Assembly (NCBI GenBank): GCA_006218065.1
Contig: VBWE01000011.1
Coordinates: 193,281 to 257,280, forward strand
Direction of reading: 5' to 3'
Source: Bacteroidota bacterium
Lineage (GTDB): Bacteria > Bacteroidota > Bacteroidia > Palsa-965
DNA length: 64,000 nt
The notes under the pieces are model-generated. The model was not told where the DNA came from, did no database searches, and saw nothing but the letters and a program-made list of their open reading frames with translations. The position numbers and the translations under genes were made by a program. Shown piece after piece: positions 1,993-18,247 of the stretch; position 1 is the stretch's first letter, and every line of letters begins with the position of its first letter.

Positions 1993-3642
<1,650 letters not shown>

Positions 3643-8229: not shown

Positions 8230-10347
8230 TCAGTCTACGTTATCGTGCAGGAAAGAATTGTTCGGACGGATCTCCGCTTTTTTCTCGTCATTCTCGCTGA
8301 GCGTGAAACGCGAAACCTGTGATTCCGATGAATGCGGATCCTGGTCGAGCTGGATGTTGCGGCGCTTGTAGGCGGGTTCGTTTTCCAGTTCGGTAAGACC
8401 ATTCGGCGATTTGAGTTTCAGGCTCAGCTCTTTCAGCTTCATGATGCGCTCCTGTGCTTTGCGCATCTGTTCTTCCTGCTGCAGTTTTTTGATCCGCTCT
8501 TCTTCCTGCTGCTGATCGGTATTTTCAGCGACAGCCGTGGACTGCTCTTCCGTTTTGGCTACCGGCTGCTCGATCTGCTGCGCAACCGTTTCTTCTTTTG
8601 TTTCCGAAACGATCTCCGATACTTCTTCCACCTGCGAAACCGTGCTGATGGTTTCCGTTGTTTCGCTTACGATGGAATCGCTGCTTTCGCTGATAACGGT
8701 TTCTTCTGTTTTCAGTTCGGAAGTCACTTCACTGTTCCATTCGGTATCGGCAACAATTTCTTCCTGCTGCTCCGAAACAATTTCCGAAACTTCTTCCGGT
8801 GAGCTGCTGAGGTTGGTGATCTCGAACTCGATCTCCTCTTTCTGCTCGAATTTTTCTTCTTCCGAAACAATCTCGCTGATCGTTTCCGTTTCGCTCACCT
8901 GTTCGAGTTCGGTTACCGGTTCAACAACTTCGATCTCCGGCCAGGTTTCGGCAACAGGTTCCGATTCTATTTCTGCAGTGATTCCAGGTTCTGTAACGGC
9001 AACGACTTCTTCCTGTTTTGTTTCTGCTGTCTGAACAAGCAGGAACGGTTCGAGCTCGTTGCGGGGCTCTTCGTTTTCCGTCTGCGTAAGCTGGCTGACG
9101 GGAAGCACGGGAGTTACTTCCGCCTTGGATTCATCCGTGCGCGAAATCAGGAAAGGCTCCAGTTCGTTGCGGGGCTCTTCGTTTACAATTTCGGGCGTTG
9201 TTTCAATTTTCGGCTCGTCCAGTTTCAGTACCACTTTTTCGGGCTGCGACTTTTTCGAGTATTCGTAAGCAACAGGCGAGGTGCTGTTGAATCCTGTTGC
9301 GATGATCGTAACGTTGACCGCTTCGCCGAGACTTTCATCCACACCGTATCCTTTGATGATTTCCGCAGTCTGGCCGGCAGCTTCCTGGATATAGTCGGTG
9401 ATCTCACCGAGTTCGTCCATCGTGATTTCGTGCGAACCGGAAATGATATTGAGCAGCACATAACGTGCGCCGGTAATGTTATTGTCGTTGAGCAGCGGCG
9501 AATTGAGCGCCATTTCGGTTGCGCGGACGGCGCGGTTTTCGCCCGAAGCCTGTGCAGAACCCATGATGGCCACACCGCTGTTGCGCATAACCGTGCACAC
9601 GTCGGCGAAATCCACGTTGATCTGCTGGGTAAGGCTGATGATTTCCGCGATACTGCGCGCAGCCGTATTCAGTACGTTATCCGCGTGACCGAATGCTTCG
9701 CTCAGTTTCAGGTTTCCGTGCATTTCGCGCAGCTTATCGTTTGAAACGACCAATAGCGTATCGACACACTGCTTCAGTTGTTCGATACCTTCTTCGGCCT
9801 GTGCGCGGCGTTTTTTTCCTTCGAAAGAAAAAGGAACGGTAACGATGGCTACGGTAAGGATACCCAGTTCACGTGCAATGCCGGCGATAACCGGTGCAGC
9901 GCCCGTACCTGTTCCGCCTCCCATGCCTGCGGTGATGAACAGCATTTTCGTATTGCTGATCAGCAGGCGGCGAAGTTCTTCGATGGTTTCGATAGCGGCA
10001 TTCCGCCCGACTTCCGGGAGCGAACCTGCACCGCGGCCTTCGGTAAGTGTTGCACCGAGTACAAGTTTCAGGGGAACAGGGCTGATATCGAGCGCCTGCT
10101 TATCGGTATTGCAAACAATAAAGTCAACGCCATTGATGCCCTGGCGATACATGTGGTTTACGGCATTGCTTCCGCCGCCGCCCACGCCGATCACTTTGAT
10201 GATCGAAGACTGTTCGGGTAAATCGAATTTCATGCTGCCCAGGTTTTTGTTTTGATTTGTGTTGTTGTGTGCCGGCATGTTTTTGCCATCCGGAGAATTT
10301 GCATTTTCCTGTTCATCCGATGCGCTAAACATGTTGTAAATATCCAT
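8230..10347 (-). CDS. ftsZ: cell division GTPase FtsZ, long acidic linker
   Basis: 705 aa against about 380 in E. coli. Residues 39-355 are the tubulin-like GTPase: GGGGSNA at 56-62, the tubulin signature GGGTGTG at 143-149 and the T7 loop NVDFADV at 244-250. Residues 360-670 are an acidic linker with internal copies of EEPRNELEPFL (twice) and VSEIVSE (three times). The end NNSFLHDNVD is the Bacteroidota version of the C-terminal peptide that binds FtsA. The first 38 residues precede the usual MKFDLP start, so translation could begin at 10233 instead. It polymerises into the Z-ring at the inner membrane. It follows ftsA in the dcw operon. Confidence 0.97.
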   Translation of the reverse strand: MDIYNMFSASDEQENANSPDGKNMPAHNNTNQNKNLGSMKFDLPEQSSIIKVIGVGGGGSNAVNHMYRQGINGVDFIVCNTDKQALDISPVPLKLVLGATLTEGRGAGSLPEVGRNAAIETIEELRRLLISNTKMLFITAGMGGGTGTGAAPVIAGIARELGILTVAIVTVPFSFEGKKRRAQAEEGIEQLKQCVDTLLVVSNDKLREMHGNLKLSEAFGHADNVLNTAARSIAEIISLTQQINVDFADVCTVMRNSGVAIMGSAQASGENRAVRATEMALNSPLLNDNNITGARYVLLNIISGSHEITMDELGEITDYIQEAAGQTAEIIKGYGVDESLGEAVNVTIIATGFNSTSPVAYEYSKKSQPEKVVLKLDEPKIETTPEIVNEEPRNELEPFLISRTDESKAEVTPVLPVSQLTQTENEEPRNELEPFLLVQTAETKQEEVVAVTEPGITAEIESEPVAETWPEIEVVEPVTELEQVSETETISEIVSEEEKFEQKEEIEFEITNLSSSPEEVSEIVSEQQEEIVADTEWNSEVTSELKTEETVISESSDSIVSETTETISTVSQVEEVSEIVSETKEETVAQQIEQPVAKTEEQSTAVAENTDQQQEEERIKKLQQEEQMRKAQERIMKLKELSLKLKSPNGLTELENEPAYKRRNIQLDQDPHSSESQVSRFTLSENDEKKAEIRPNNSFLHDNVD

Positions 10348-14021: not shown

Positions 14022-15143
14022 TTATTTTTTCTTTTCACGTTTTTTGTTCACCATCGACAGCACTTCGCCGGCGATGATCTCCGCTGAATTCGGCACCGCA
14101 AGCCCGGCCATGCCCAGTTCCATTTTATGACGCAGGTCCGCATCGCCCGCAAGAACCAGGACTTCGCTGAGCAGTTTTTCTTTCGCTTCACTGTCTTTCA
14201 CCAGCACGGCGGCTTTGTGCGTAACGAGCGCCATCGCGTTCTTCGTCTGGTGATCTTCGGCCACGTTGGGAGAAGGAACGAAAATGGACGGCTTGTGCAC
14301 GATGCAGAGTTCGGAAATGGAACTTGCACCGGCGCGTGAAACCACGAAATCGGCCACGGCATAAGCAAGGTCCATGCGCTGGATGAAATCAAACGCTTTC
14401 ATGCTTTCGTACTTTTTTACCGCTTCCTGCGCCTGCGGAAAAAAACTTTTGCCGGTTTGCCAGACCAGTTGAATACCGGTTTTGCTCAACTGCTCCAGTC
14501 CTGCCGCGATACTTTCGTTTATCGTTCTTGCCCCGAGACTTCCGCCGATCACGAGCAGCACAGGCTTATCCGCAGCGATCCCGAAATGTTCCAGCCCGCG
14601 CGGTTTTTTACCTTCCATATTCTGGATATCCTGCCGAACCGGGTTGCCGGTGAAAATGATTTTTTCTTTCGGGAAGAAACGATCCATGTTATTATAAGCC
14701 ACGCAAATCCGGTCGACACGTTTCGCGAGGATTTTATTGGTAATGCCGGGATACGAATTCTGTTCCTGGATCAGCGTAACCACACCCGCTTTCGAAGCCA
14801 CGCGCAGCATCGGCCCGCTGGCATATCCGCCGGTGCCGATAACCGCATCGGGTTTGAACTGTTTCAAAATCCGTTTTGCTTTCAGCAAACTGCCGATCAG
14901 TTTGAAAGGAACGGCAAAGTTGGAAAACGTCAGTTTGCGCTGGATGCCGCTGATGTTCAGTCCTTCGATTTTATAACCGGCCGCGGGAACTTTTTCCATT
15001 TCCATGCGGCCTTCCGCACCGACGAATAAAAATTCAGCGTCCGGCGCTTTGGTTTTGAGTGCATTTGCAATAGCGATTGCCGGGAAGATATGTCCCCCGG
15101 TTCCGCCTCCGCTCACGATGAATTTAAGCGGTTGCAAATTCAC
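14022..15143 (-). CDS. murG: lipid II synthase MurG
   Basis: 373 aa, a GT-B glycosyltransferase that moves GlcNAc from UDP-GlcNAc to lipid I on the inner face of the membrane. The first G-loop GGGTGGHIFPAIAIA is at about residues 12-26. The second domain carries VIGGSLGARTINE and the nucleotide-binding stretch SRAGASSISELC. It overlaps ftsW by 20 bp, and murC follows after 6 bp. Confidence 0.97.
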   Translation of the reverse strand: MNLQPLKFIVSGGGTGGHIFPAIAIANALKTKAPDAEFLFVGAEGRMEMEKVPAAGYKIEGLNISGIQRKLTFSNFAVPFKLIGSLLKAKRILKQFKPDAVIGTGGYASGPMLRVASKAGVVTLIQEQNSYPGITNKILAKRVDRICVAYNNMDRFFPKEKIIFTGNPVRQDIQNMEGKKPRGLEHFGIAADKPVLLVIGGSLGARTINESIAAGLEQLSKTGIQLVWQTGKSFFPQAQEAVKKYESMKAFDFIQRMDLAYAVADFVVSRAGASSISELCIVHKPSIFVPSPNVAEDHQTKNAMALVTHKAAVLVKDSEAKEKLLSEVLVLAGDADLRHKMELGMAGLAVPNSAEIIAGEVLSMVNKKREKKK

Positions 15144-16320
15144 CTCCTTTCACTTCATCCGTTTCTTTTTCCGCTGCTTCCTCTTCTTTCTCCGTGGCGC
15201 GGCTTACACTGAGCACAATGCCCACGGCGATGCTCGAGAACAGTATGGACGTACCGCCCATACTCAGGAATGGCAGCGGCTGCCCGGTTACCGGGAAAAG
15301 ATTTACAGCAACAGCCATGTTGATCATGGCCTGGAAAACAAGGCTGAACGACAAACCGAATGCGAGCAATGTTCCGAATGTTTTACCGCTTTTGGATGCT
15401 ACGCGTATGCCGCGGAAAAGCAGGATCAGGTAGAGCAGTAAAATTCCTCCTCCCCCGATCACCGACCCGTATTCCTCGATGATGATCGCGAAAATAAAAT
15501 CGGAATAAGGATGCGGCAGGAAATTGCGCTGCGTGCTGTGCCCGATTCCTTTACCGACCACGCCGCCGGTGGCAATGGCTATTTTCGACTGGTTGGCCTG
15601 GAAACTTTTATTCGGATCTTTCTTTTCTTCTCCTTTGAAAAATTCCACGATCCGCGCCTTCCAGGTATCCACGCGCGGAAGCAGTCCCGGCGAAGCTGCG
15701 CTGAGCGCAATCAGCAGGGAAAAACCACTGATCGCCATGCCGATCGTTTTCAGGATATGCATGATGGGCACACGGCCGATGAACAGGATGATCATGCAGG
15801 TTGTGAACAAAAGCGCAGCAGTAGAAAAGTTGGCGGGAAGAATCAAACCGCAAACGGCGAAAATCGGGAGCATCACGTGAATGAGCACTTTTTTGTACTC
15901 TTTCATTTCCATCTGCTTCACCGTCAGGATGCGCGCGACGTACATGATAAGCGCGATTTTTGCAAAGTCGGAGGTCTGGAAAGTCAGACCTGTTCCCGGT
16001 ATCGCAATCCAACGGTCGGCATTGTTCAGGTTAGCTCCTTTCACCAGCGTGTACAACAGCAGCGGGATGGAAATCAAAAGCGCAATCTGCGAGATACGTG
16101 AAAAATACGTGAACTTGATGCGGTGCGTAAGCCACATGAGCAGGAACCCGAGCACGATAATTTTACCGTGCTTGAATAAATAATACTCCGTGTCGCCCGA
16201 ATGATGTTTATACGCCAGCGTTACCACCGAACTGTACACCGCGAGCAGCGAAAGCAGTGAAAGCAGCAGTACGATCATCCAGATGACCCTGTCTCCCTTG
16301 AAATAGCTGAAGATGTTCAT
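15124..16320 (-). CDS. ftsW: SEDS glycosyltransferase FtsW
   Basis: 398 aa with about ten membrane helices. The SEDS signature around PHPYSDFIFAIIIEEYG is present, as is the C-terminal run GQPLPFLSMGGTSILFSS. With FtsI it forms the septal peptidoglycan polymerase. The assignment as FtsW rather than RodA rests on its place in the dcw cluster next to murD and murG. The charged tail after the last helix (ATEKEEEAAEKETDE) overlaps the murG start. Confidence 0.95.
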   Translation of the reverse strand: MNIFSYFKGDRVIWMIVLLLSLLSLLAVYSSVVTLAYKHHSGDTEYYLFKHGKIIVLGFLLMWLTHRIKFTYFSRISQIALLISIPLLLYTLVKGANLNNADRWIAIPGTGLTFQTSDFAKIALIMYVARILTVKQMEMKEYKKVLIHVMLPIFAVCGLILPANFSTAALLFTTCMIILFIGRVPIMHILKTIGMAISGFSLLIALSAASPGLLPRVDTWKARIVEFFKGEEKKDPNKSFQANQSKIAIATGGVVGKGIGHSTQRNFLPHPYSDFIFAIIIEEYGSVIGGGGILLLYLILLFRGIRVASKSGKTFGTLLAFGLSFSLVFQAMINMAVAVNLFPVTGQPLPFLSMGGTSILFSSIAVGIVLSVSRATEKEEEAAEKETDEVKGGEFATA

Positions 16321-16384: not shown

Positions 16385-16894
16385 CTATTTCACCAACTCC
16401 TTCACCAGCTTCTTAAACTCATTTCCCCTGTTCTTGTAATTATCAAATGCATGATAGCTCGGGCAGCAGGGTGAGAATAAAACCGTATCGCCTTCCCGGG
16501 TGTATGCGCTTGCAATCTGTACGGCTTCCCGCAGGTCAACGGCGTGACAAATCAGCCCGTTGGTGCAGGGCTGAAATGCCTCGAAATATTTTTTCACCTG
16601 TGAGCCGAGAAAAACCACGCATTTCACTTTATCACGAACCAGGTCCTGCAGCAATTTGTAATCGTTTTGCCGGTCGATACCGCCGAGAATCAGCAACACC
16701 GGCCCGTTCACGTCGCGGAGCGCTTCCCAGGTCAACTGCACTGTCGTTGCCATCGAATTGTTGATCCAGGTTGCGCCACTGGCTTCGAGCACGAATTCCA
16801 TGCTGTGTTCCGGTTTCTGCTGCACGTTTTTGCGCGCGGCTTCCAGGCTGCTCTCGGTTATTTTTTTCTGCTTTGCTGATTTATCCTGATTCAT
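16385..16894 (-). CDS. orphan MurD C-terminal-domain paralogue
   Basis: 169 aa, collinear with the last 140 residues of the adjacent MurD: GGIDRQNDY for GGVDKGNDY, and FSPCCPSYHAFDNYKNRG for LSPACASFDLFENYEDRG. The UDP-binding and ATP-binding domains are absent. MurD's catalytic motif NDSKATN reads NNSMATT here, so the Asp and Lys are lost. The frame is intact, with its own ATG 15 bp after the murD stop and 64 bp before ftsW, so it looks like a maintained gene rather than recent debris. It probably arose by partial duplication of murD. A role as regulator or binding partner of MurD is inference; slow decay is the alternative. Confidence 0.8.
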   Translation of the reverse strand: MNQDKSAKQKKITESSLEAARKNVQQKPEHSMEFVLEASGATWINNSMATTVQLTWEALRDVNGPVLLILGGIDRQNDYKLLQDLVRDKVKCVVFLGSQVKKYFEAFQPCTNGLICHAVDLREAVQIASAYTREGDTVLFSPCCPSYHAFDNYKNRGNEFKKLVKELVK

Positions 16895-16909: not shown

Positions 16910-18247
16910 TCAAAGTCCGCGAACGGCCGCTTTGAACTGCTGGCCGCGATCCTCGTAGTTTTCAAAAAGGTCAAAACTGGCGCATGCCGGCGAAAGCAAT
17001 ACGGTGTCGCCTTTTTTGGCCAAACGGTAGGCTGCGTTTACCGCTTCTTTTGCCGAAGACGTTTCCACGATGGTTTCTACTTTGTCACCAAAAGCCTTGA
17101 TGATCTTTTTGTTCTCCGTTCCGAGACAAACGATGGCGCGCACTTTTTGCTTCACCATTTCGAACAGGGAACTGTAGTCGTTGCCTTTGTCGACTCCGCC
17201 CATCACCCATACCACGGGCGTGTCCATGCTCTCGAGCGCATACCAGGCCGCGTTCACGTTGGTCGCCTTCGAATCGTTGATGAAGTTGATGTTGTTGATG
17301 CGGGCGACATGTTCGAGCCGGTGTTCCAGGTTCTCAAAGTCGGACAGGCTTTCGCGGACAACATCTTTACGTACATCGGCAAGACGTCCTGCAACAGCTG
17401 CAGCCATGCTGTTGTAAATGTTGTGTCTTCCTTGCAGTGCTAATTCTTCGATGGTCATAGACAGTTGGTTGTTATTATGTGTGTTAATTATGATTTCATT
17501 GTTTATTAAGCAGGCCCCTTCTTCCACCTGTTGTTTGATGGAAAAGGGATATTGTTTTGCATTGATCTTCCAGCGTTTGATCGTTTCCATCGTCACTTCA
17601 TCGTCGATGCAGTAGATGAAAGCGTCTTCCGGGCGCTGGTTGTTGGTGATCCGGAATTTCGAGTCGGCATAATTTTCAAGCTTGTCGTCATACCGGTCGA
17701 GATGATCCGGCGTGATGTTGAGCAGGATGGCGATGTCTGCACGGAAAGCATACATATCATCCAGTTGAAAACTGCTGATCTCGAGCACGTAGTAATCATG
17801 ATCTTCTTCGGCCACTTGGAGCGCGAAACTCTTCCCGATGTTTCCGGCGAGACCGACTTTGTACCCTGCTTTCTGCAGGATATGATGCGTGAGCAGTGTC
17901 GTCGTCGTCTTTCCGTTGCTCCCTGTGATGCAGATCATTTTCGCATGCGTATAACGTGATGCAAACTCGATCTCCGAAATCACCGGCGTGCCCTGTGCGC
18001 GAAGCTTTTTTACCAGCGGCGTTTTTTCGGGTATGCCGGGACTTTTGATCACTTCGTGCGCATTCAGAATTTTTTCTTCCGAATGCTGCTCCTCTTCCCA
18101 GTCAATTCCATGTTGTGAAAGAACGTTCCTGTATTTCTCTTTGATCTTCGACTTGTCGGAGACGAAGACCTCAAATCCTTTTTTTTTCGCCAGCACCGCC
18201 GCACCTGCACCGCTTTCTCCCGCGCCCAATATCACGATGCGTTTCAT
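16910..18247 (-). CDS. murD: UDP-N-acetylmuramoylalanine--D-glutamate ligase MurD
   Basis: 445 aa, complete. Domain 1 begins VILGAGESGAGAAVLA, the ATP site GSNGKTT is at residues 109-115, and the C-terminal domain has INDSKATN, GGVDKGNDY and LSPACASFDLFENYEDRG, all catalytic or substrate motifs of MurD. It adds D-Glu to UDP-MurNAc-L-Ala in the cytosol. It lies 9 bp after mraY. A diverged copy of its C-terminal domain follows directly downstream, which is not usual for the dcw cluster. Confidence 0.97.
   Translation of the reverse strand: MKRIVILGAGESGAGAAVLAKKKGFEVFVSDKSKIKEKYRNVLSQHGIDWEEEQHSEEKILNAHEVIKSPGIPEKTPLVKKLRAQGTPVISEIEFASRYTHAKMICITGSNGKTTTTLLTHHILQKAGYKVGLAGNIGKSFALQVAEEDHDYYVLEISSFQLDDMYAFRADIAILLNITPDHLDRYDDKLENYADSKFRITNNQRPEDAFIYCIDDEVTMETIKRWKINAKQYPFSIKQQVEEGACLINNEIIINTHNNNQLSMTIEELALQGRHNIYNSMAAAVAGRLADVRKDVVRESLSDFENLEHRLEHVARINNINFINDSKATNVNAAWYALESMDTPVVWVMGGVDKGNDYSSLFEMVKQKVRAIVCLGTENKKIIKAFGDKVETIVETSSAKEAVNAAYRLAKKGDTVLLSPACASFDLFENYEDRGQQFKAAVRGL

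Follow-up and report, generated by a model that had tools for sequence, protein, structure and literature searches.

A stand-alone MurD C-terminal domain encoded between murD and ftsW in Bacteroidia

In about one fifth of the Bacteroidia genomes that we sampled, an extra gene lies in the dcw cluster, the core set of division and cell-wall genes, which is among the best studied of bacterial gene clusters. This short gene sits between murD and ftsW and encodes the C-terminal domain of MurD as a protein in its own right. It goes back to one ancient duplication, purifying selection maintains it in many families, and it has lost residues on which the ligase depends. Judged from its sequence, it is probably a MurD-family domain that has become a conserved protein on its own, with a different job, previously undescribed.

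The copy analysed here lies in a stretch of 64,000 nucleotides, called the window below. Four of its genes matter for what follows:

16910 to 18247, minus strand: murD, a complete three-domain ligase with all motif residues present; the paralogue source
16385 to 16894, minus strand: the short gene, a stand-alone MurD C-terminal-domain paralogue of 169 amino acids (open reading frame, alignment, AlphaFold, Foldseek)
15124 to 16320, minus strand: ftsW, the downstream neighbour, and the neighbour retained when murD is separated or replaced
14022 to 15143, minus strand: murG, the gene with branch rates best matching those of the short gene

The short gene is an intact reading frame from ATG to TAG. 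Its ATG lies 15 nt past the murD stop and its end 64 nt ahead of ftsW; in GC content, GC3 and codon usage it resembles the rest of the cluster. That it is translated by programmed read-through from murD is ruled out, as the distance and frame between the two vary among genomes and the window has tandem stops (TGA TAA). In Escherichia coli K-12 murD and ftsW overlap with no gene in between, so the initial annotation was right in holding that standard clusters lack such a gene. Elsewhere in the window (8230 to 10347, minus strand), ftsZ encodes a protein of 705 amino acids with a Glu/Val-rich linker of about 300 residues before the C-terminus.

Homology, fold and active-site residues

The initial annotation had described the product as aligning with the MurD C-terminal domain and lacking the other two domains. 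Both points hold. Residues 29-167 of the short protein match residues 308-445 of the window MurD with 40% identity (E=1e-33) and no large gap. The NCBIfam murD model (TIGR01087) gives the window MurD 419.8 bits, above the cut-off; it covers the short protein at model positions 302-440 only, and the 116.7 bits obtained there fall short of the cut-off of 211.95. Among NCBIfam models, the 29 relatives scanned likewise match murD and no dedicated one, and the four shown singly score 61-146, also below the cut-off. The Pfam profile for the Mur ligase C-terminal domain (Mur_ligase_C, PF02875) scores the window protein at 28.1, marginally below its cut-off of 28.4, and is matched at E<=0.001 by 28 of the 29 relatives. 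By profile and by fold the family has a Mur ligase C-terminal domain; the UDP-binding and ATP-binding domains, which complete the three domains of a functional MurD ligase, are missing.

An AlphaFold2 model of the short protein, built with 86 aligned sequences, has a pLDDT of 86.9 and a pTM of 0.80. Searched with Foldseek, it retrieves MurD crystal structures at the top, matched over the C-domain alone (E 1e-12, TM 0.7-0.8), and PAP11/MurE-like and MurT are also among the matches. The Mur-ligase C-domain fold takes up residues 29-167 or thereabouts. Ahead of it, at about residues 1-28, runs an N-terminal tail that is mostly disordered but has one helix at 14-22; these first 28 residues are the counterpart of the end of the MurD middle domain.

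How much of the active site is left? We set residue equivalence by an alignment that includes E. coli MurD, in which mature numbering is gene numbering minus one. The positions in the window are:

16739 to 16759, minus strand: codons for NNSMATT, residues 45-51 (the N46-M48-T50 region), equivalent to NDSKATN of MurD (alignment)
16715 to 16723, minus strand: codons for residues 58-60 or so, the end of the helix after NNSMATT; a landmark, not a functional site (alignment columns)
16670 to 16672, minus strand: codon for R75, at the place of Lys348, which binds D-Glu in E. coli MurD; the residue here is close to random in the short family
16457 to 16459, minus strand: codon for S146, at the place of Ser415, which binds D-Glu in E. 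coli MurD; conserved as Ser in 84% of the short family (weighted)

The Asp and Lys of the window MurD motif NDSKATN are gone, as the initial annotation had noted. In the window the losses are wider than that: relative to mature E. coli MurD, R302 is replaced by S31, D317 by N46, K319 by M48, K348 by R75 and F422 by Y153. T321 (T50) and S415 (S146) are retained, and the short protein thus has two of the five C-domain residues D317, K319, T321, K348 and S415. As a rule for the family the Asp and Lys loss does not stand, because other members keep DSK.

In MurD the two carboxylates of the D-Glu moiety are bound by different residue pairs, one by K348 and T321 and the other by S415 and F422, as shown for D-Glu-mimicking inhibitors (PMC3527612). 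We calculated residue frequencies over 19 families, giving each family equal weight. At the K348 position of the short family K accounts for 13% and R for 15%, and the entropy is 3.44 bits; the entropy in MurD is 0. The equivalents of R302 and K319 are relaxed as well, K being kept at the latter in 68%. The positions that make the fold (H309, E312, P420, R434, G435 and F438 of the window MurD) are conserved at >=92%. Which half of the active site is lost differs by family: some keep DSK and lose the GGxDK loop, and the whole GGxDKGND loop is absent from the short proteins of f5, f9, f24, f31, f53 and other families. Because the ATP-binding middle domain is missing and the K348 equivalent is randomised with the fold kept, the short protein, on the evidence of these residues, cannot be a ligase. 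Because families have lost different halves, the same comparison indicates that the function they share can be neither the binding of nucleotide nor that of D-Glu.

Distribution, origin and selection

The gene is not peculiar to the window. Within the window's family the window genome and 10 of the 11 others carry it, which is every genome in which murD was found, and always in the same place; the eleventh is 59% complete and gives no match whatever. In an evenly drawn sample of the class, it occurs in 19 of 76 families and in about 79 of 396 genomes; the genome count, taken from tables, is a lower bound, since scores of the most divergent copies come close to the threshold. In essentially all carriers it lies between murD and ftsW. 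A phylum sample of 392 genomes, mostly of other classes, yielded no short gene outside the class. The few second matches in it came from broken murDs (split or frameshifted) or from unrelated Mur ligases.

In 44 sampled non-carriers with a single match, fetched individually, murD is followed by ftsW with no short gene, and tblastn found no decayed remnant between the two. Hidden diverged or decayed copies were considered for these genomes and rejected, as the tblastn matches fell only on the 3' end of murD included in the searched region. Presence varies even inside one genus (f20 g22), where the gene has been lost.

Some loci depart from the common arrangement. One genome (G289, locus L106) has two tandem copies between murD and ftsW, at 2164-2673 and 2711-3238. 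Three families have an additional stand-alone copy outside the dcw cluster, and in two families the extra copy adjoins the same aldehyde dehydrogenase gene (f44, G054, L113:2478-3077; f4, G092, L114:2500-3036). In another genome (G394, L122) murD is split into two overlapping frames of 268 and 215 amino acids, by a frameshift or an assembly error.

In a quick tree search with 46 short proteins and 51 MurD C-domains, one branch (SH-aLRT 95) parts all short proteins from all MurDs. The short gene therefore stems from one ancient duplication. Separate recent duplications in each family are ruled out, since each family's short proteins stand apart from its MurDs in the tree. In this event the 3' part of murD, comprising the end of the middle domain and the C-domain, would have been duplicated in tandem in an ancestor within Bacteroidia. 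On a tree of the flanking proteins, presence of the short gene needs 13 changes, 7 of them forced by well supported branches. If the origin was single, one gain followed by these changes points to repeated clean loss, from a minimum of 7 to about 13 times.

Where it remains, the gene is under purifying selection. Its dN/dS in close pairs is 0.01-0.25, well below one in each measured pair: 0.011-0.034 in f12, the best-measured family, and up to 0.25 in others. In the window's family short-protein identity is 42-57% (57% for the closest relative), and synonymous sites are saturated, so there is no ratio. The initial annotation had suggested that retention implies a role, and had named absence from close relatives together with a dN/dS near one as the mark of a decaying duplicate. 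Neither sign was found: all close relatives in which murD was found carry the gene, and the measured ratios are far from one. Purifying selection and presence in relatives bear out a role. Nor does the gene look like a pseudogene of murD, since frames are open in all carriers and evolution is not neutral.

The short protein is much less conserved than MurD in most families. In f12 the constraint on the short domain is much stronger than that on MurD: between genomes whose MurDs share 74-88% identity, the short proteins share 97-99%. At five f12 loci (L064, L065, L071, L072 and L074) MurD is unusually fast and the short protein almost frozen.

Possible partners and function

The initial annotation proposed a regulatory subunit or decoy for MurD. 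A genome with a completeness of 100 (G261, f71) bears on this. Its sole MurD above the family cut-off is part of an 878-amino-acid fusion encoded outside the dcw cluster (L109, 2497-5130, minus strand; also L110), in which MurD stands behind a domain resembling MurL, the UDP-MurNAc-L-Ala-L-Glu epimerase of Xanthomonadales. The dcw order is murE-mraY-short-ftsW-murG: the native murD is gone and the short gene retained, on a very long branch (2.4, quick tree). This suggests that the dcw murD was replaced via the L-Glu route. In a second genome (G050) the short gene is still paired with ftsW, and mraY-murD lies elsewhere.

We also compared branch rates on a fixed tree of 65 genomes for five neighbouring genes, an exploratory test with a reference common to the branches and with p values left uncorrected for multiple pairs. 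The short protein covaries with MurG (+0.43, p=2e-5) and FtsW (+0.33) and not with MurD (-0.10). Leaving out one family at a time, the MurG and FtsW values are stable, that for MurG falling to +0.29 without f12. The power of the test is modest: the two halves of MurD itself covary at only +0.31, and MurD with MurG at +0.46. When AlphaFold modelled murD translated past its stops into the short gene, the domains came out confident and separate, joined by a disordered linker; the pTM of 0.68 is about that of undocked domains and gives no sign of docking on MurD, in what is a weak test (about 20 paired rows, no PAE). Because of retention in G261, the rate covariation and the lack of a docking sign, MurD is not favoured as the specific partner; it is not clearly a partner of the short protein.

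We give an even chance to the following explanation: the short protein is a non-catalytic accessory protein, made of one Mur-ligase C-domain, that serves peptidoglycan-precursor synthesis or division via protein contacts. We infer that it acts by binding and that its partner is on the MurG/FtsW side. It would bind proteins of the precursor pathway or the membrane-side machinery (MurG, FtsW, possibly Mur ligases gathered by MurG) and would act as an adaptor, spacer or dosage-type regulator, not as an enzyme. A narrower version, which we put forward tentatively, is that the repurposed domain is an adaptor linking cytoplasmic precursor enzymes to the MurG/FtsW membrane machinery. Whatever the role, it is dispensable, because the gene has been lost many times.

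A MurD regulator would dock on MurD or compete with its mobile C-domain, tuning activity. The short protein is a direct paralogue of that domain and is encoded next to murD in nearly all carriers; the domain shifts between open and closed states (PMC3527612), which makes a competing copy mechanically plausible; the long branch in G261 looks as though a partner had changed; and inhibition of MurD by a bound protein elsewhere (PMC12208494) keeps the model alive. Yet G261 keeps the gene without its native MurD, the f12 short protein is nearly invariant beside a MurD that is not, covariation with MurD is absent, and the read-through model, weak test as it is, looks undocked. We consider this explanation doubtful, with a real chance of being correct. 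A different possibility is that the domain retains a site for D-Glu or another acidic ligand and reports substrate level in the glutamate pathway. The window protein does keep the equivalents of T321, S415 and, as Arg, K348, with the ATP side lost, and the S415 equivalent persists in most of the family by weight. Across families, however, the K348 equivalent is randomised and several have lost the GGxDKGND loop, so D-Glu binding is not the common function. A sensor is improbable as a general explanation; D-Glu sensing could be limited to the window's family.

Could the gene be a functionless leftover of the duplication, on its way out? Its repeated losses, also within one genus, and its fast evolution in many families would fit. 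Against this stand one old origin, an open frame in all carriers, conservation in 19 families, the low dN/dS and the lack of half-decayed remnants in the 44 non-carriers. A decaying duplicate is ruled out by presence in relatives, dN/dS and single old origin; the leftover reading is refuted for the families with dN/dS measured, the window's family being saturated at synonymous sites, and overall we give it very little credence. We think it just as improbable that the short protein substitutes for MurD's own working C-domain. In f12 it retains every motif residue and scores about 190-198 against canonical MurD C-domains, compared with 158-182 for the f12 MurD. But all neighbouring MurDs, those of f12 included, have intact C-domain motifs, and in most families the short protein lacks motif residues.

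Significance and comparison with known systems

Neither NCBIfam nor Pfam has a dedicated family for the short protein, and the gene would be labelled murD or hypothetical. We found no description of such a gene in the literature searched, of which coverage was partial. One published survey of dcw gene order would have hidden the short gene, since tandem copies entered it as a single gene (PMC8871954). In the short protein, nature offers a non-ligase form of the MurD C-domain that is under selection, and repeated loss of the gene supplies natural comparison strains. To learn whether the protein has a partner would show if these bacteria organise their soluble wall-precursor enzymes into a complex, a long-standing question. 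If the accessory protein is indeed an adaptor, ligase-derived domains are structural parts of the wall-synthesis complex.

Mur-ligase folds are found outside the classic ligase step in PAP11/MurE-like, of the plastid RNA polymerase, and in MurT of MurT-GatD. These are multi-domain proteins, neither lone C-domains nor derived from MurD. The closest likeness is to MurD (C-domain PF02875) in identity (40%), fold (TM 0.7-0.8) and genomic place; the short protein differs in having no UDP- or ATP-binding domain and, in the window, in the loss or replacement of D317, K319, R302 and K348. MigC of Acinetobacter baumannii, a MurD-inhibiting GTPase that binds MurD (PMC12208494), resembles the proposed MurD subunit in being a separate protein that alters MurD activity; unlike the short protein, it is a COG0523 GTPase of unrelated sequence, encoded outside the dcw cluster. 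In other bacteria (Thermotoga maritima, Bordetella pertussis) MurG binds MurD, MurE and MurF and has been proposed as a scaffold (PMC6420597). The complexes described differ in having no stand-alone ligase domain, but they gather Mur ligases by protein contacts, which is the kind of action proposed here for the short protein.
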